From an uncultured bacterium (GTDB taxonomy: Bacteria; Bacillota_I; Bacilli_A; RFN20; CAG-826): a stretch of DNA of 64,000 bases. A model generated the notes under the pieces. It worked only from the letters and a program-made list of their open reading frames with translations, was not told the origin of the DNA and ran no database searches. The position numbers were made by a program, and so were the translations under genes. Below, piece after piece: positions 16,607 to 33,071 of this stretch; the first letter of the stretch is position 1, and each line of letters begins with the position of its first letter. The stretch spans positions 1-64,000 of the forward strand of contig CASGAB010000004.1 in assembly GCA_949299395.1 (NCBI GenBank). Reading direction: 5' to 3'.

Positions 16607-17302
16607 CTATCTATTGAATGGCATGCCGAGTTCTTTTAATAATGCATAAGCTTCTTCATCGCTTTTTGCAGTAGTAACAACTACGATATCCATGCCTCTA
16701 ACTTTATTAACTTTATCGTAATCGATTTCTGGGAAAATTAATTGTTCTTTAACACCTAAAGTATAATTTCCTCTTCCATCGAAACAGTTTTTATTAACAC
16801 CTCTAAAATCTCTAACTCTAGGGAGTGAAATAGAAACTAATTTATCGAAGAATTCGTACATTCTTGTTCCTCTTAAAGTAACCTTACATCCGATTGGTTC
16901 ACCTTCTCTTAACTTAAATGTAGCGATTGATTTTTTAGCTTTTGTAATAACTGGTTTTTGACCACTAATTAAGCCTAATTCTTCAACTGCTTCATCAAGT
17001 CTTTTCTTATCTTGAGTAGCATCACCAACACCGATGTTAATAACGATTTTATCTAAGTGTGGAACTTCATGAACGTTTTTATATTCGAACTTCTTCATTA
17101 AAGCAGGAGTAACTTCTTCTTTGAATTTAACTTCAAGTCTTGTAACATATTCTTTTTTCTTGTTACCATTTGAAGCTTTTTTAGCTTTAGGAGCTGTTTC
17201 TTTTTTAGCTTCTGAAGTAGGTGCTACTTTAGTAGAAGTTTCAGCTGTTGTTTTTGTTGTTTTTGTTTCAGTTTTTTGAGCTGTAGCTTTCTTTTCTGCC
17301 AT
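16607..17302 (-). CDS. rplE: 50S ribosomal protein L5 with low-complexity N-terminal extension
   Basis: 231 residues against about 179 in Bacillus. The conserved part starts near residue 52 and includes [15 protein letters not shown] and [19 protein letters not shown]. The first 50 residues are almost only Lys, Thr, Ala, Glu and Ser, like the extension on L22 in the same operon. L5 contacts 5S rRNA and P-site tRNA. The start has a good GGAGG site. Confidence 0.96.
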
Positions 17303-19724: not shown

Positions 19725-20294
19725 TTAAAATTCACTTTTTTCCTTTAATGTAATGTATACATTAGAGAATCTTTTGACCATTCCTGAAGCACTACCTTTA
19801 GCTCTAGGTAAGTATCTTCTCATTTTGAATGAATCACTTGCCATAATTTCAGCGATATAAAGATTATCTTTATTCATATTGAAATTATTTGTAGCGTTTG
19901 CGACTGCTGAATTGATTAATTTGATAATCATTGGAGCAGCTTCTTTATGAACGAGCGATAAAGTTTCAATAGCTTCATCAACGTTTTTACCTCTAACAAG
20001 ATCAATAACTAATCTTACTTTACGAGGAGTAACTTTAAGTCCTAAGACTTTAGCTTTTGCTTCAGTTACTGTAGGTTTAACTTCTTTCTTTGCTTCAACC
20101 TTCTTTTCTTCTTTTTTAGCTTTAGGAGCAGCTTTCTTTGTTTCTGCTTTTTTAGCAGGAGCTTTAGCTACTTCTTTAGTTGCTGTTTCAGCTTTCTTTG
20201 CTGTAGCAACTTTTTTAGTTGTAGTGGATGAAGCTTTTTTAGTTTTGGTTTCTTTTGTAGCTTTTTCAGTTACAGTCTTTTTTGTTTCTGCCAT
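19725..20294 (-). CDS. rplV: 50S ribosomal protein L22 with 78-residue low-complexity extension
   Basis: 189 residues against about 113 in Bacillus. The conserved part starts near residue 80 (AKVLGLKVTPRKVRLVIDL) and includes the tunnel loop around KRFSNVYITLKE. The front 78 residues are Lys, Ala, Thr and Glu repeats of the form ATKETKTKKASSTTTKK. L22 lines the exit tunnel. The extension is longer than any other in this operon. Confidence 0.96.
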   Translation of the reverse strand: MAETKKTVTEKATKETKTKKASSTTTKKVATAKKAETATKEVAKAPAKKAETKKAAPKAKKEEKKVEAKKEVKPTVTEAKAKVLGLKVTPRKVRLVIDLVRGKNVDEAIETLSLVHKEAAPMIIKLINSAVANATNNFNMNKDNLYIAEIMASDSFKMRRYLPRAKGSASGMVKRFSNVYITLKEKSEF

Positions 20295-23723: not shown

Positions 23724-25331
23724 CTAGTAATGATTTTCTTTAACCTTTTCTAAATAGAGATAAAGTGCCTTTTCCCACTCCTCTCCTTCATATTTATACT
23801 GATTTTTGAATAATTTTGATAATTGTTTACCAACATTTTTTAAATAAATTTTATATGAAACATCTAAATTTTTACGGTAATAGAAGCCTCTAAAAGCGAG
23901 TTTTAAAAATTTTGGTGTATAAGAAAATCTTCCAACTCCTTTTTTATTTTCTTTAATTGCTAAATATTTACATAAAAACCAAGCATTTATCAATTTTTGA
24001 GCATATAATTGAACATCAAAGTTATCTTTATCAACGTGAATTCTATGATAATAAAGTCGATCATTAATAAAATGAATCTTTTTAGCATATAAAAAACTCA
24101 TAAAAGAGAAGAAAACATCTTCATTACATGAAGAATAAGGCATAAAGAAAATATTGTAGTTTTTTAAAAATTCTCTTTTAAAGAATTTGGAATAGATGCC
24201 GCCTCTAATAAAAACATTATTAAATAAAGCTTTTATAACAATATCTGAGTTATCATGGTATCTTTTTGTAAAATAAAACTTTAAATTAGGTTTAATTAAT
24301 TTATCGTTTTTTATTGTTTCAAATTCACTTACAACAATATCGGCGTTATGTTCAATCGCTTTTTTATAAAATTTTTCTAAATAATTTTCTTTTACATAAT
24401 CAGTTGGTTCAATAAAAGAAATAAATCTTCCTCGAGCATTTTTTAAAGCATAATTTCGACTTAAAGAGATATCATTAAAGTTAACATTATAAATAAATAA
24501 TATTTCGGGATATTTTTCCCTATATTCATTTATGATATTAACTACTTCTTCAGTAGGATTATCTAATACAGCAAAAACTTCATAGGTAGTCGTTGTTTTT
24601 TGATTTAATAAATAATTTAAACATTCATAAATATATTTAGTTTTTTTAGAGATAGTTAAAACTAAACTTACTTCATAATTTTTATTATCGAGCTTTTTTT
24701 CTAAAGGTAAACTATATTCACATCCACAATAATCTTGTCGATATAAACTATATGTTTTAGCAATTTGGACTCCGATATCTTGACCATTGTTCTTTTTAAA
24801 ATCACTATAAACAAATTCAATTTCATGGTTATATAAACTTTCAAAGTGTTTTCCAATCATATTGATATAAGATGCATCTTTATTTCTAGAAATAGACATT
24901 ATTGTTGTTACATATTTAAAATTCTTTTCTTTTGCGACATCAAAAAGTTTTCTCATTCTTTTAGCAATACAGATCTTACAACGAGTTTCGCCTTCTTTAT
25001 TATCTTTATATTGGGCTAATTCTTTTTTAAAAGAATCGTAATCATAATCATCTTCAATAATATTGATATGTTTATTAAATTTAACATTTAAATCATTAAC
25101 ATATTTTTTAACGTAATAAATTCTTTTTTCATATTCTTCTTTAGGATAAATATTACTATTTGTATATAAAATTGTTATATCAAATAAATCTTGAAGGAAA
25201 ACAAGTGGATATGCACTACAAGGAGCACAGCAAACATGAAGAAGTAATTTTGGTTTTCCTTCTTCTTTTTTTCTAATTTCTTTATATTCTTTAATAAACT
25301 CTAAATAGTAGTTCTTTTCTTGTTTTTCCAT
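23724..25331 (-). CDS. queH: epoxyqueuosine reductase QueH fused to a family-2 glycosyltransferase
   Basis: 535 residues in two parts. Residues 1-212 are QueH (DUF208): LLLHVCCAPC (Cys34, Cys35, Cys38), RCKIC (Cys118, Cys121) and the YRQDYCGC end (Cys202, Cys204). QueH reduces epoxyqueuosine to queuosine in tRNA; its conserved Cys pairs are cluster ligands. Residues 218-535 resemble GT2 enzymes: VSLVLTIS start, SLSRNYALKNARGRFISF, and ED near CNEDVFF. The usual DxD near FLDSDD reads FIEPTD (305-311), so metal binding may be altered. The gene follows queA by 49 bases, in the order tgt-queA-queH, covering the base insertion, transfer and reduction steps. The fused GT might glycosylate queuosine or be an unrelated passenger. 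Confidence 0.85.
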   Translation of the reverse strand: MEKQEKNYYLEFIKEYKEIRKKEEGKPKLLLHVCCAPCSAYPLVFLQDLFDITILYTNSNIYPKEEYEKRIYYVKKYVNDLNVKFNKHINIIEDDYDYDSFKKELAQYKDNKEGETRCKICIAKRMRKLFDVAKEKNFKYVTTIMSISRNKDASYINMIGKHFESLYNHEIEFVYSDFKKNNGQDIGVQIAKTYSLYRQDYCGCEYSLPLEKKLDNKNYEVSLVLTISKKTKYIYECLNYLLNQKTTTTYEVFAVLDNPTEEVVNIINEYREKYPEILFIYNVNFNDISLSRNYALKNARGRFISFIEPTDYVKENYLEKFYKKAIEHNADIVVSEFETIKNDKLIKPNLKFYFTKRYHDNSDIVIKALFNNVFIRGGIYSKFFKREFLKNYNIFFMPYSSCNEDVFFSFMSFLYAKKIHFINDRLYYHRIHVDKDNFDVQLYAQKLINAWFLCKYLAIKENKKGVGRFSYTPKFLKLAFRGFYYRKNLDVSYKIYLKNVGKQLSKLFKNQYKYEGEEWEKALYLYLEKVKENHY

Positions 25332-25380: not shown

Positions 25381-26406
25381 TTAAGGATGAATAAACATTG
25401 AATCTCCAAAAGAAAAGAAACGATATTTTTCTTCAACCGCATGCTTATAGCAACTTAAAGTAAATTCTCTTCCCATAAAAGCACTAACAAGCATTACTAA
25501 TGTTGATTTAGGAAGATGGAAATTAGTAATTAAACAATCAATTGCTTTATAAGTATAGCCAGGGAAAATAAAAATAGATGTATCATCTTTATCAGCCCTA
25601 AATTCATTAAACTTATTAAAATTAGATTCTAAAGTACGAACTACCGTTGTTCCTACTGCAATAATTCTTCTTCCTTCTTTTTTAGCTTTATTAAGTTTAG
25701 AAGCAACTTCTTCACTAATTTCATAATATTCACTATGCATATGATGATCATTGGTGTCTTTTACTTTTACTGGTCTAAAAGTTCCTAAACCAATATTTAA
25801 AGTAACATCATATACTTCAATTCCTTTTTCTTTTATTTTTTCAAATAATTCATTAGTAAAATGAAATCCAGCTGTAGGAGCTGCGGCACTTCCTTCAATT
25901 TTTGCATAAACCGTTTGATAATCATTTTTATCTTTAATTTTTTCATGAATATAAGGAGGAAGAGGCATATTACCGATTTCATCTAATATTTCAAAGAAAA
26001 TTCCATTATATTCGAATTTTAAAATTCGAATACCTTCATCTTTTACTTCTAAACAGGTAGCTTTCATTTTATCGTTAAAATTAATAACACTACCTACTTT
26101 TATAGCTTTAGCATTACCAAGTAAACATTCATAAACGTCATTACCCATATCTTTTAAAAGTAAAACTTCAACATGAGCACCAGTTACTTCTTTTACTCCA
26201 AATATTCTAGCTGGAATAACTTTTGTATTATTTCTAACTAAAACGTCGCCTGGCTTAAGATAATCGATAATATCAAAAAAATGCTTATCTTCATAAGTTT
26301 TATTAGTTTTATCTATAACCATCATGCGACATTCATCTCTAACTTTAGATGGAGTTTGCGCAATTAATTCTTCTGGTAAATCGTAATTAAACAATTCAAT
26401 ATCCAT
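25381..26406 (-). CDS. queA: tRNA preQ1(34) S-adenosylmethionine ribosyltransferase-isomerase
   Basis: 341 residues. It transfers and isomerises the ribose of SAM onto preQ1 in tRNA to give epoxyqueuosine. It begins with FNYDLPEELIAQ and contains GSAAAPTAGFHFT and NIGLGTFRPV, all diagnostic. It lies 9 bases after tgt, upstream of queH. Confidence 0.97.
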   Translation of the reverse strand: MDIELFNYDLPEELIAQTPSKVRDECRMMVIDKTNKTYEDKHFFDIIDYLKPGDVLVRNNTKVIPARIFGVKEVTGAHVEVLLLKDMGNDVYECLLGNAKAIKVGSVINFNDKMKATCLEVKDEGIRILKFEYNGIFFEILDEIGNMPLPPYIHEKIKDKNDYQTVYAKIEGSAAAPTAGFHFTNELFEKIKEKGIEVYDVTLNIGLGTFRPVKVKDTNDHHMHSEYYEISEEVASKLNKAKKEGRRIIAVGTTVVRTLESNFNKFNEFRADKDDTSIFIFPGYTYKAIDCLITNFHLPKSTLVMLVSAFMGREFTLSCYKHAVEEKYRFFSFGDSMFIHP

Positions 26407-26415
26407 AATTTTTAT

Positions 26416-27570
<1,155 letters not shown>

Positions 27571-27660: not shown

Positions 27661-30600
27661 TTAAATAACTGTAACAGTTCCATAATCATAAATTATGTTA
27701 TAGCAACTAGTTACATTTTCTCCTTTTTCATTAAGAATCATATCAATTTTAATAATATTTACATATTTACCAGGTTTATTAAATTGATTACTAAATACTA
27801 AAATACCTATAATCCTATCTCCACTAACTAAACCACCTGATTCATATTGATCAGCATCTTCTCCAGTAGATATCGTTATATCTGGTGTAGTTATATATAG
27901 ATCTTTTTTAGTCATTGTTAATTTACCTAAGTTTTTCTGGAGATTATATTTTTCAATAACACTGTTATTGTTTCGATCATAAATCATTAATTCAGCATCG
28001 TTTTGAATAACTCCAACCTTAGAAATCATACTCCAAGATGTTGCACTTAAATAGTCTCCATCTTTAAACTCACCTTGAAGGAAATATTCTTCATAACTAT
28101 GAGATGATCCATCATACTCAAACGTTCTAGAGTCACTATTAAAAACAATACCTTCTTTAGGTGCCTCTCCAGTTTGCGAACCTCCCTCACCTAATGAAGT
28201 ATCTCCAGTCCCGTTTGTTCCACCTTCATCGTTTCCATCAATTGGAGGTAAAGCTTCATTTGGATCAACTGGAGCAACAGTAAATTCAAATTCTACCCAC
28301 CCTTTTCCTTCAATAAAAACTTCAGTTGTAGCATGTTTTTGGAAAGGAATTACATCATATGTTTTTCCAACACTCTCACCATTAATTTTATATCCACCAA
28401 CCATTCTTGCAGGTAAACTATTGATTCTAAAAACTAGCGTTGCTGCTCCTGCAAAATAATCGCATTTTCCTACATGAGTATCAGTAAAGAACGAAACTAA
28501 TGGATTTGAAGAATTAGCAGCTTCTATATTTGAAGTAGCGTAAGTGAATTCACTTTCATAAAAATCAATTAATTTATTAGCGAGTGTAATCGGATCTTTT
28601 CGATGAATAAGATCATGTTCTTCTAAATAAGGAATTAAAGCATCAAAGGTTTTAGATTCAACACCCCTATAATTTTCATCAACAAATTTCGAATATTCTT
28701 CCATTTCTTTAATAACATTAGGGTCTTTAAATTCTGCATTATCAATTAATCGATGATCTTCCAAATAATTGAAATTATATCCTTCAACAAAAATATCTTT
28801 TGTTTTTAAATCTGAAATTATACTATGAGTATCAACTTGTTGAACTTTATGTAAAATTGGATAAATAGGAACTAAATCACTATTTCTTGAATTTAAAGCA
28901 TAATAATTTAAGTTACCAGCTAATTCAGTAGTTTTTCCATCTAGCAATATTGAAATAAATTCTTGAGGATTAACCCCAAATTTAGGGTTATATCTAGGAG
29001 CACTATCCCAAGACTTGCCATTATAACGACCAAAAGATGTAGATTTAAAGAATGAACTTCCACTCTTTGTAGGAGTATATTTTAAAATTGGATTTGTGCT
29101 AGAAGCGGAATTTAAACTATTTCCACCCCCATAATTTAAACCTTCATCTGTATCAATTATATCTTCAATATCACCACCTGGCTTATCTCCTCCGCCATTG
29201 CCATCTCCTCCTGGATCATCAGGATCAGTAAAATCTGAATCAACAAACCCTTCCCACGAATCGTCTATTTGATCTCCAGGTAAAGTATTAACATTTTCAG
29301 CAACTATAATTCTTCCAAAATCATAATTAATATCATAATCATAATTTACGAGACCTGCATACTTATGAGTAATTTTAAATTCAACATTATTATCATAAGT
29401 ACCAATATCAGTTACTTTTGTATATGATTCAACAGTTATACTATCAGTCTCAGCTAAAGAACCATTAGTAATCTTAAATAAAGGAAAACCTTGTGGATTA
29501 CCAGTATATCCAGTAATTATGCTTATAGTACTAATAGTTATTTTCCTTTTAGTAACTTGCCAATCATTTCCGTTAACTGTAATAGCATAGTTATGAGTTA
29601 TCTCATTTTGATTTTCGTCAAAAACATGAATTTCTACAATATCTTTTGTATACGTTCCTACATGAGTAGCGTCAATATCATCATTAAAATAATTTTCAAA
29701 GTAATGACTATTTAATAAACCAGAAATTCCTTCTGTAGATACACTATATCCATTGTGTCCATCATATTCACGATCATGAAAAGTATATCTAATTGTTAAT
29801 GGACGAGGTTCAATAATGTAATCTCCAGCATCGAAATTAATTAAATAATTATTGTTAACTACTTCATTTTTCGAATTTCTAATTGTGACTTTAGGTTCAT
29901 TTTTATAATTACCTGCATCAACATAAGAAGGTAAAGTTGCTTCAAGTCTATCACCATTAACTAAACTTCCTTCGGTAATAGTAAAATTAGTATTATCAAC
30001 ACTTACTTTTCCATCATAAACCTTCTTAAAATCTCCGGTTTTAATGGTAATTTCTCTTTTATTAATTTTTAAAGCTCCGGAGAAAGAATAATCATAGTAT
30101 TCTGTAACATTTTGACCTGTAGAATTAAAGAATTCTAATTCAATATCTAAATTATGATTACCGGCATTAATTTCTCCGGGATTGTTTTTTATTTTCCAAT
30201 AATCACCTTCGTATAAACTACCTTGAGCGATAGAAAGATCTTCAACATAATGTCTATTTCCATCATATTCAAATTCACCATCGCCTTTAAAAGTTACTTC
30301 TCTAGGTAAAAGGGTAATATTATATGAAGAATTAAGTTTAAAGTCATAGCAAGAAGAAACATCTTCATTCATTGCATTAATTACTTTAATACTTTCTTTT
30401 TTTAAAGAGACACTAGCTTTTTCATCGTTAAGATTTGAATAAGTAAAATCAGCGGCAATTATTCGATCACCATTAATTAATCCAAAATCTAAGTTTGGAG
30501 TTTCGCCATAATAAGATAAATCATCTGTAGATTTAACATCTACTTCAAGCGGGTTAATACTAAATTCTTTTGGACTTCCATAAGAATGTGTTCCAAATAT

Positions 30601-30918
30601 ATTCTCTGAAATTCCTCTAATTTCATATTTTCCAGCCTTATATGGTTCTTCTTTTACCCATTCATCACTATTTATGCTTCTAAATTCGTAATCTATATAA
30701 TCAGACATTATACCCATTGATTGATATTCAAGTTTTTCGCCATAAGAAACATCTTTAATAGCAACGGTATCAATAACAACACCTTTTAAAGAGCAGAGTG
30801 TTCCAGTAACAACGAAAGCAAAAATTAAGATACTTAAAAATAAATATCTAAAACGATAGAAAAATTTATAAAACTTTAAATAACCTTCTAAACTATTTTC
30901 ATATTTCTTAATTAACAT
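27661..30918 (-). CDS. large membrane-anchored protein with MBG-like repeats and a transglutaminase-like core
   Basis: 1085 residues. One membrane helix near residues 25-42 anchors it with the bulk outside. Several beta-rich repeats follow, each with Y-D-G, a GSL-x-x-GD turn, a DAGxY stretch and an IxxR end (such as EYDGNRHYV, VYDGKVSVD, REYDGHNGY). The centre, after a Gly/Asp-rich linker (about 575-610), holds a transglutaminase-like fold: Cys819 in VGKCDYFAG, His862 in KHATTEVF and Glu878 in WVEFEFT, where Asp is commoner. C-terminal repeats resume. It is the last gene of a six-gene operon, 5 bases after its shorter paralogue. Such folds can be protease-like or cross-link peptides; the activity here is unknown. 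Confidence 0.75.
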   Translation of the reverse strand: MLIKKYENSLEGYLKFYKFFYRFRYLFLSILIFAFVVTGTLCSLKGVVIDTVAIKDVSYGEKLEYQSMGIMSDYIDYEFRSINSDEWVKEEPYKAGKYEIRGISENIFGTHSYGSPKEFSINPLEVDVKSTDDLSYYGETPNLDFGLINGDRIIAADFTYSNLNDEKASVSLKKESIKVINAMNEDVSSCYDFKLNSSYNITLLPREVTFKGDGEFEYDGNRHYVEDLSIAQGSLYEGDYWKIKNNPGEINAGNHNLDIELEFFNSTGQNVTEYYDYSFSGALKINKREITIKTGDFKKVYDGKVSVDNTNFTITEGSLVNGDRLEATLPSYVDAGNYKNEPKVTIRNSKNEVVNNNYLINFDAGDYIIEPRPLTIRYTFHDREYDGHNGYSVSTEGISGLLNSHYFENYFNDDIDATHVGTYTKDIVEIHVFDENQNEITHNYAITVNGNDWQVTKRKITISTISIITGYTGNPQGFPLFKITNGSLAETDSITVESYTKVTDIGTYDNNVEFKITHKYAGLVNYDYDINYDFGRIIVAENVNTLPGDQIDDSWEGFVDSDFTDPDDPGGDGNGGGDKPGGDIEDIIDTDEGLNYGGGNSLNSASSTNPILKYTPTKSGSSFFKSTSFGRYNGKSWDSAPRYNPKFGVNPQEFISILLDGKTTELAGNLNYYALNSRNSDLVPIYPILHKVQQVDTHSIISDLKTKDIFVEGYNFNYLEDHRLIDNAEFKDPNVIKEMEEYSKFVDENYRGVESKTFDALIPYLEEHDLIHRKDPITLANKLIDFYESEFTYATSNIEAANSSNPLVSFFTDTHVGKCDYFAGAATLVFRINSLPARMVGGYKINGESVGKTYDVIPFQKHATTEVFIEGKGWVEFEFTVAPVDPNEALPPIDGNDEGGTNGTGDTSLGEGGSQTGEAPKEGIVFNSDSRTFEYDGSSHSYEEYFLQGEFKDGDYLSATSWSMISKVGVIQNDAELMIYDRNNNSVIEKYNLQKNLGKLTMTKKDLYITTPDITISTGEDADQYESGGLVSGDRIIGILVFSNQFNKPGKYVNIIKIDMILNEKGENVTSCYNIIYDYGTVTVI

Positions 30919-30923
30919 AATCC

Positions 30924-33071
30924 CTATTTAATAACAACGTGCCCGTATTTATATATAATTCTGTAATTACTCTTAACATTATTTCCGTTTTCATCAACAA
31001 TTTCATTTATAAGTGCAATTGCAACATAAGTTCCTTTTTCAGTAAAAGCATCTCCACTCCATGATCGTATTTTATGGCCTGGTACTAAACCAGTTACCCC
31101 CAAATCAAAAGTTTTTTCAGTACCATCATACTCAAATTTTAAATCTGGTGTTTCGACAGTTATCTCTTTTTTATCTATTTGAAGTTTTCCAAAATCTTCC
31201 CTAATCTTATATTGACTTGTTACATCATTAAAATTAGAGTCAACAACCATATAATCAACCGTATTTTCAATGCTTGTTGCATCAGTAATTGAATTATTGT
31301 TAACACCAATAAATTGATGACCAGGTTTTAACTCACCTTCTAAAATATAAGGAACTTCACTTGTTAAAGGTTTTCCATCATATTCTTTATAATAATCATT
31401 ACTCCCAATATATAAATCAATATCTTCATCATCTGCTCCTTCAGTAACTGGAGGTGGGTAAGTAACACCTTCTTTTAAAGGAGCAACAGTAAATTCTAAT
31501 CCAACCCAGCCGATTCCATCGATATAAGTTTCACAAATTTGATGGCCTCCCCAAGGATTAACTAAATATTTTTTATATGGAATTTTTGCGGATGCGCCAA
31601 AACCACCAAGAGTTCTTGTTGGATAACCCATTATTCTTAAAAGTAATGTTCCCATTCCTGAAAAACGACTACAATCACCTTCCTTAGTTTTAGTGAATTC
31701 TAAAAGAATATCATCTGCTAAATAATCAGTAAGTCCTTTGTAGTTATAAAAATAATCCCTTTTAAAATAATTTTGAATGGCGACTACAGTATCATATAAA
31801 TTACCCTTATCAAAACCCTCTTGTCGAATTAATTTTTCTAGTTCTTTTTTAGTTGAATCAGGAACATCTAAATAATTTTCATAAACATGTTTACGATAAT
31901 CTTTTTCTGCTTCAATATATTTTGGATCTTTTAAAGAAAGCTTATTTAATAAATTAATATCTGTAACATAATCAAAATAATATCCTTCAACAGTGATTGT
32001 TTTAGATCTTAAATCTGAAGCAACAGCGTAAGTATCACTTACTTGACCATAAGTAAGGATTGGATATTCAGGAATAAGATCAACAGTTCTGCTTTTAATT
32101 GAAACATAAGTAATTGTAGCTTCAAACTTTCTATCTGGATAATCTTTTAATAATTCACTCATGAAATTTTGAGGATAAATTCCGTTTTTTGGGATATAAA
32201 CAGGTGCTTTATCAAAACCTTTTTTATTATAATCACCGCCTGCATTAATAGATAAAAAAGTGCCACCTTTTTTATTTGCTGAATATTCAAAAACTGTTTC
32301 AAAAGTCTTCTCACCACCAGGACCGTATTGACTACTTTGTGCCGCATTTAATGTATCTGACGCTCCATCAACTTGATTTGGATCATATTCAACTTTTGGT
32401 AAATCACCTTCTCCTCCAGAACCTCCGCCTCCAGAAATATTAATTTGACCGATAATGATATATCCATATTCATAATAAATATCATAATTATAAGTAACGT
32501 CTTCATTAGATTCTAAATTTCTAATTACAACCGAAAAGTAATTATCGAAAACTCCTTCTTGATCATAAGAATCAAAAATAGTTTCGCTAATATAATCTGT
32601 ATTAGCAACGCTTCCTTTTGCAATAGTAAAAGTTTCTACACTATATTCTTCACCATCTTCATAAGGGAACATATCGCTATCGCTTCTTAAAATTAATTCT
32701 CTTTTTTCAATAGTGATATCGCCTAAATCTAAAGATAAATTGTATGAAGAAGTAACATCATTTCCAGCACTATTAATAATTCTTATTTCATAAATTTCAT
32801 TAGAGTATTCTCCAGCATTTAATACTTCTTCACTAGTAGAGATTTGAAGCGTATCTCCAGATAATAAATATCCGTTTGTAATTGTATATTCAAAATCATC
32901 TAAAGGTGTGCCATCGTATTCTTGATTAATATCATCAATTTTTATTGAAATTGAAGTTTGTAAGAATCTTAAAATGCCAGTTGCATTGAGACCAAAAAGA
33001 ACAGCAACTGTTATTGAGCAGAAAGCAATAATAGACATGAATGTAATAATTAATTTGTGCAACTTTTTCAT
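30924..33071 (-). CDS. shorter paralogue with MBG-like repeats and a transglutaminase-like core
   Basis: 715 residues, the same layout as the neighbour at 27661: a membrane helix at about 8-28, MBG-like repeats (YDGTPLDDF, YNLSLDLGDITIEKRE), a Gly-rich linker, then a transglutaminase-like core with Cys467 in GDCSRFSG, His510 in GGHQICE and Glu526 in WVGLEFT, then two more repeats. Gene lengths and repeat numbers differ, so it is a duplication followed by divergence. It lies 8 bases after the AAA gene. Confidence 0.75.
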   Translation of the reverse strand: MKKLHKLIITFMSIIAFCSITVAVLFGLNATGILRFLQTSISIKIDDINQEYDGTPLDDFEYTITNGYLLSGDTLQISTSEEVLNAGEYSNEIYEIRIINSAGNDVTSSYNLSLDLGDITIEKRELILRSDSDMFPYEDGEEYSVETFTIAKGSVANTDYISETIFDSYDQEGVFDNYFSVVIRNLESNEDVTYNYDIYYEYGYIIIGQINISGGGGSGGEGDLPKVEYDPNQVDGASDTLNAAQSSQYGPGGEKTFETVFEYSANKKGGTFLSINAGGDYNKKGFDKAPVYIPKNGIYPQNFMSELLKDYPDRKFEATITYVSIKSRTVDLIPEYPILTYGQVSDTYAVASDLRSKTITVEGYYFDYVTDINLLNKLSLKDPKYIEAEKDYRKHVYENYLDVPDSTKKELEKLIRQEGFDKGNLYDTVVAIQNYFKRDYFYNYKGLTDYLADDILLEFTKTKEGDCSRFSGMGTLLLRIMGYPTRTLGGFGASAKIPYKKYLVNPWGGHQICETYIDGIGWVGLEFTVAPLKEGVTYPPPVTEGADDEDIDLYIGSNDYYKEYDGKPLTSEVPYILEGELKPGHQFIGVNNNSITDATSIENTVDYMVVDSNFNDVTSQYKIREDFGKLQIDKKEITVETPDLKFEYDGTEKTFDLGVTGLVPGHKIRSWSGDAFTEKGTYVAIALINEIVDENGNNVKSNYRIIYKYGHVVIK

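Follow-up and report, generated by a model that had tools for sequence, protein, structure and literature searches.

Genes at the queuosine locus

We analysed a 64,000-nucleotide stretch of DNA from an uncultured bacterium (contig CASGAB010000004.1 of assembly GCA_949299395.1), referred to here as the window, in which tgt and queA are followed directly, on the same strand, by a gene joining queH to a family-2 glycosyltransferase (GT2) gene (Table 1). A preliminary description, made from the sequence alone, had given the correct coordinates for this 535-codon frame, leaving its minus-strand orientation unsaid, and had reported a QueH with all its cysteines and a GT2-like domain in one chain, downstream of tgt and queA. 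These points were upheld: the protein matches PF02677 with 179.2 bits (cut-off 23.5; model positions 1-173 of 175) and PF00535 with 64.6 bits (cut-off 23.3; residues 230-377), the genes upstream match TIGR00430 and TIGR00113, and C34, C35, C118, C121, C202 and C204 are all present. QueH is the epoxyqueuosine reductase that catalyses the last step of queuosine (Q) synthesis by QueT, Tgt, QueA and QueH. Since queT was also found in the genome, at a separate place, the salvage-type pathway QueT-Tgt-QueA-QueH is present.

Table 1. Positions of the fusion gene, its domains and motifs, and the adjoining queuosine genes in the window.
Feature	Position	Strand	Evidence
queH::GT2 fusion gene, 535 aa, single uninterrupted frame (535 codons, start ATG at 25331, stop at 23724)	23724..25331	(-)	
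QueH domain, residues 29-208, Fe-S/active-site cysteines all kept	24708..25247	(-)	PF02677 1e-52
GT2 (GT-A type) domain, residues 218-505	23817..24680	(-)	PF00535 1.4e-17; phmmer to 5hea, TarS 5tze, TarP
Decayed DxD motif E308-P309-T310-D311	24399..24410	(-)	TarS alignment, TarS mutants (PMC5156392)
Retained E404-D405 pair (TarS E177 and catalytic base D178)	24117..24122	(-)	Alignment to TarS
Conserved C-terminal tail, residues 506-535 (KNQYKYEGEEWEKALYLYLEK region)	23727..23816	(-)	
queA	25381..26406	(-)	TIGR00113, 433.6 bits
tgt	26416..27546	(-)	TIGR00430, 536.9 bits

In an alignment of 22 relatives, the six QueH cysteines are invariant and C38 is nearly so. The structure prediction that the preliminary description had suggested for the glycosyltransferase (GT) domain was informative for the QueH part of the AlphaFold2 model (pLDDT mostly >90; match to the solved QueH 7lc5 with TMt 0.87) and, for the GT part itself (pLDDT 36-50 over residues 330-430), too poor to show active-site geometry or domain contacts. 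With the known non-cobalamin epoxyqueuosine reductase QueH (PF02677; Thermotoga maritima, 7lc5), the window protein shares the full domain, all cysteines, the operon mates tgt and queA and, judging from the model, the fold; it differs in having approximately 320 additional C-terminal residues, which make up the GT2 domain and the tail. We infer that the QueH half is a working enzyme.

Distribution and origin of the fusion

A first scan detected the full-length fusion in three other metagenome-assembled genomes (L002, L003 and L004), and eight genomes, including that of the window, are now known to carry it: G000, G113, G085, G119, G143 (L004), G106, G125 (L003) and G153 (L002). All eight lie within 26 genomes of the window's genus. 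Among the longest matches listed, no fusion was found in 133 other genomes of the family, nor beyond the genus in samples of the order (279 genomes) and the phylum (392 genomes), which overlap with one another and with the family sample. In a phage collection no match covered 80% of the query, and the five matches listed comprised the QueH part only. No QueH-GT fusion was found in the open-access literature, to which the present one is apparently new.

The preliminary description had asked whether the fusion tracks with tgt and queA and whether it might be an error confined to one assembly. It directly follows tgt-queA in 8/8 genomes, seven of them further members of the genus with the same fusion in the same place. 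An assembly or frame-reading artefact, as might be suspected from a window genome in 39 contigs and named relatives that are metagenome assemblies, has practically no probability left, because the seven further assemblies carry the fusion in diverged sequence with no internal stop; assembly or read error is thereby ruled out, and the fusion is confirmed as real.

The seven other fusions are 68-76% identical to the window in QueH and 24-46% in the GT, the value of 24% being that of G125; among all fusion genomes, identity ranges over 65-100% for the QueH parts and 23-89% for the GT parts. The eight form one clade with support of 0.999 in a tree of Tgt, QueA, L3 and S10 (tgt, queA, rplC and rpsJ), and they group together on the QueH tree as well. 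Given this single clade, the distribution is most simply explained by one fusion event.

Decay of the glycosyltransferase active site

The solved GT2 enzymes nearest to the window GT include the wall-teichoic-acid GTs TarS and TarP. The match to TarS/TarP/RmlT-like wall-teichoic-acid GTs and to GalT1 (5hea) extends over approximately 210 residues, with the GT-A N-terminal half and the Glu-Asp (ED) pair in common; in contrast to the TarS/TarP-like enzymes, the window GT is fused to a tRNA-modification enzyme, carries an extra conserved tail and has Thr at the metal ligand D93. In the alignment with S. aureus TarS, residues R75, D91, D93, D94, E177 and D178 correspond to R292, E308, T310, D311, E404 and D405 of the window protein. 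The altered DxD motif (EPTD) noted in the preliminary description was thus located at residues 308-311, opposite D91-S92-D93-D94 of TarS. D93 of TarS is a direct Mn ligand, and its mutation abolishes activity and donor binding; activity is also abolished in R75A, D91A, D93A, D94A and E177A and severely lowered in D178N (PMC5156392). With T310 in place of D93, the window protein is without the direct metal ligand, and the Glu-Asp pair with the catalytic base is kept as E404-D405. The retention of the R75, D94, E177 and D178 equivalents would permit an unorthodox or metal-independent activity.

The Mn-ligand Asp is lost in 6/8 fusions. Outside the window, the site reads E-S-T-S in G113, E-S-S-S in G085 and G119, G-L-N-G in G153 and D-S-T-S in G125, where the ED pair is lost as well. 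Only G143 and G106 (2/8) retain D-G-D-D together with ED, and each of the 7/7 unfused GT2s linked to queH keeps D(G/S)DD and ED. Net charge of the GT domain, considered as a possible sign of tRNA binding, did not discriminate, the fused GTs ranging from +7 to +21 and the unfused single GT2s from +9 to +17.

Selection on the domains and the C-terminal tail

Selection was assessed by pairwise Nei-Gojobori dN/dS with codon bootstrap. For the intact pair G143/G106, dN/dS of the GT is 0.07 (0.04-0.11), on par with 0.06 for QueH. Close pairs of the DxD-lost clade gave GT values of 0.18 (0.12-0.29), 0.33 (0.22-0.49) and 0.38 (0.24-0.57), and the window GT gave 0.72 (0.53-0.98) and 0.70 (0.51-0.97) against G153 and G113, respectively, with dS near saturation in distant pairs. 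G113 and G119 look mosaic (QueH dS 0.05 versus GT dS 0.42). These values are raised relative to the intact pair, yet all upper bounds lie below 1: selection on the GT domain of the DxD-lost clade is relaxed and still purifying. The caution in the preliminary description that the GT may be inactive agrees with this relaxation, with the Thr at the Mn-ligand position and with the loss of that ligand across most of the fusions, and GT activity was probably lost in the window fusion.

The last 30 residues follow a different course, 80% of them being invariant in the DxD-lost clade compared with 22-53% in segments of the GT. In close pairs and in pairs with G153, the tail has a dN/dS of 0.015-0.08 with free synonymous change. 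Overlapping DNA signals were considered as a cause of this constraint and ruled out, since synonymous positions of the tail are free to vary (dS 0.6-0.9). A weaker form of the tail is found only in GT2s encoded just downstream of queH (G150, G149 and G156); a scan of other proteins yielded no instance beyond these and the fusions. The tail may serve in folding or in contact with a partner or with tRNA.

Glycosyltransferase genes around queH

The usual gene order in the family is queT-tgt-queA-queH-rpsJ. In 37 genomes of other genera no GT adjoining queH was recognised with genus-derived profiles, which distant GTs could escape, and three intervening proteins there appeared acyltransferase-like by eye. 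In sister species within the genus, queH is adjoined by unfused, intact GT2, GT4 or DUF4422 genes, in the orders queH-GT2 (G150), queH-GT2-GT4 (G149 and G156), queH-GT4 (G148), GT2-queH (G137), GT2-queH-UDP-galactopyranose mutase (G152) and queH-DUF4422-epimerase, the last GalE-like (G131 and G049). In G026 and G154, a GT2::GT4 double enzyme precedes queH and a 344-aa gene follows it (with a GT4 match in G026); in G026 the double gene is itself preceded by a 425-aa GT2-type gene in antisense orientation, and antisense genes of like size occur near queH in G154, G137, G070 and G155. Altogether, a GT2 or GT4 is fused to queH or neighbours it in 16/24 genus genomes whose queH locus could be read, and in several of them the GT gene nearly abuts or overlaps queH. 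The queH-linked GT4s scanned match general GT4 Pfam models only.

A single origin of all queH-linked GT2s (fused, downstream and upstream) was rejected by the AU test (p 0.008), and a single origin of the fused and downstream GT2s was borderline (p 0.039), in a GT tree with long branches. Because the GT2s linked to queH do not form a single clade, the locus received GT genes from different sources on more than one occasion. Such GT-rich surroundings are compatible both with an insertion spot for glycan genes and with a functional link; surface glycans are favoured by the variation in GT kind and by the presence of UDP-galactofuranose (UDP-Galf) and epimerase genes. Those GT2 relatives that lie elsewhere in the family, checked for a surface-glycan context, are orphan genes and offer no guidance. 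To judge from the few glycan genes neighbouring queH, the GT probably has a surface-glycan origin.

Interpretation of the fusion protein

On balance, the window protein is probably a working QueH that carries a C-terminal pseudo-glycosyltransferase, derived from an adjacent GT gene that itself probably belonged to surface-glycan synthesis. The joining of queH and an adjoining GT2 gene would have taken place a single time, in a common ancestor of the eight species, when the GT2 product probably acted on a cell-surface glycan or glycolipid. Two descendants (G143 and G106) keep the intact DGDD/ED site; on the branch of the window the metal-binding Asp was lost, and the GT domain would have been retained as a non-catalytic part, most likely with a role in folding or in partner or tRNA contact through the conserved tail.

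The preliminary description had proposed sugar transfer to Q immediately after its formation. For the window protein, glycosyl-queuosine is not supported: the Mn-ligand Asp is replaced in it and in most fusions, selection on the GT is relaxed there, the GTs adjacent to queH are of several unrelated kinds, sometimes accompanied by surface-glycan enzymes, and the solved relatives include wall-teichoic-acid GTs. Among the evidence obtained, the GT is tied to tRNA by gene position only. There is an outside chance that the GT of the DGDD relatives (G143 and G106), and perhaps that of the window, adds a hexose to queuosine after QueH, as a bacterial counterpart of animal galQ/manQ synthesis; similarly, we give low odds to the version in which these relatives and the intact queH-adjacent GT2s and GT4s of sister species glycosylate tRNA queuosine and the window copy is a decayed derivative. 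The repeated association of GTs of more than one origin with queH, the close or overlapping spacing of the genes and the strong constraint seen where the fused GT is intact speak for such a role, as does the class of the animal queuosine glycosyltransferases QTGAL and QTMAN, which fall into GT2 and GT4, the two classes also seen here. However, no GT classes are commoner in bacteria than GT2 and GT4, the DxD motif is lost in most fusions, the kind of GT differs between close species, and UDP-Galf and epimerase genes lie nearby. QTGAL and QTMAN would share the tRNA queuosine substrate with the window GT if this reading held; the likeness noted is one of GT class, the window GT is without the metal ligand, and the literature found describes no fusion of the animal enzymes to an enzyme of Q synthesis. 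The accounts of glycosylated Q that were found concern animals (PMC8654956, PMC12518689), and for bacteria GluQ is given as the Q derivative (PMC12548931); no bacterial glycosyl-Q was found in the open-access literature.

It is just as doubtful that the fused window GT has kept its activity towards a surface polymer or lipid, through an altered metal site, with the two halves independent and the fusion a by-product of adjacency. E404-D405, R292 and D311 are kept, dN/dS stays below 1 and TarS and TarP are among the nearest solved GT2s; furthermore, with no more than three matches each to GT2 and GT4 in the entire window genome, loss of one would be felt. Against this, the direct metal ligand is gone with T310, sister sequences have lost the three acidic residues altogether (ESTS, ESSS and GLNG), and, scaled to dS, the GT evolves at three to ten times the rate seen in the intact pair. 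Less probable again is that the GT domain no longer has any use and is in the course of being lost, with only the frame to the tail being kept. A dN/dS of up to 0.72 and the low GT identity of G125 could be read in this way, but the bounds below 1, the retention of the domain in all six DxD-lost genomes (0/6 have dropped it) and the 53% invariance of residues 371-400 in that clade argue otherwise.

Here a tRNA-modifying enzyme and a glycosyltransferase fold are naturally fused, in a clade that displays both intact and decayed active sites, a pairing that makes bacterial queuosine glycosylation directly testable. If the DGDD relatives do glycosylate Q, they would represent a bacterial glycosyl-queuosine system; if bacteria do not, the clade would contain a pseudo-glycosyltransferase kept under selection within an RNA-modifying enzyme.

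Other fusions and long proteins at related loci

QueH was also found joined to other products of neighbouring genes. A QueA::QueH fusion of 551 aa, which places two queuosine-pathway steps in one chain, occurs in two genomes of another family (L136:7126-8781 (-) and L137:4771-6426 (-)), and a 385-aa fusion of QueH to a GNAT acetyltransferase domain stands directly after tgt-queA (L141:6643-7800 (+)). Both resemble the window protein in this respect; the partner in QueA::QueH is a pathway enzyme, unlike GT2 in the window or GNAT in L141, and we know of no link of either GNAT or GT2 partners to Q. The GNAT protein could be a further adjacency fusion or an acyl-modifier of Q. In addition, the QueH at L139:7552-8838 (-) has an N-terminal extension of approximately 245 residues with no Pfam match, and the GT2::GT4 double glycosyltransferase adjoining queH (699 aa) was located in two genus genomes at L120:2378-4477 (-) and L121:9152-11251 (-).

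Upstream of tgt in the window (27661-33071 (-)), two large proteins of 1085 and 715 aa have transglutaminase-like domains and repeated modules, and related long proteins are encoded upstream of queT-tgt in G113, G085, G119 and G153. Within the ribosomal-protein operon, the two proteins encoded at 16607-17302 (-) and 19725-20294 (-), apparently L5 and L22, carry long N-terminal extensions rich in K, A and T.
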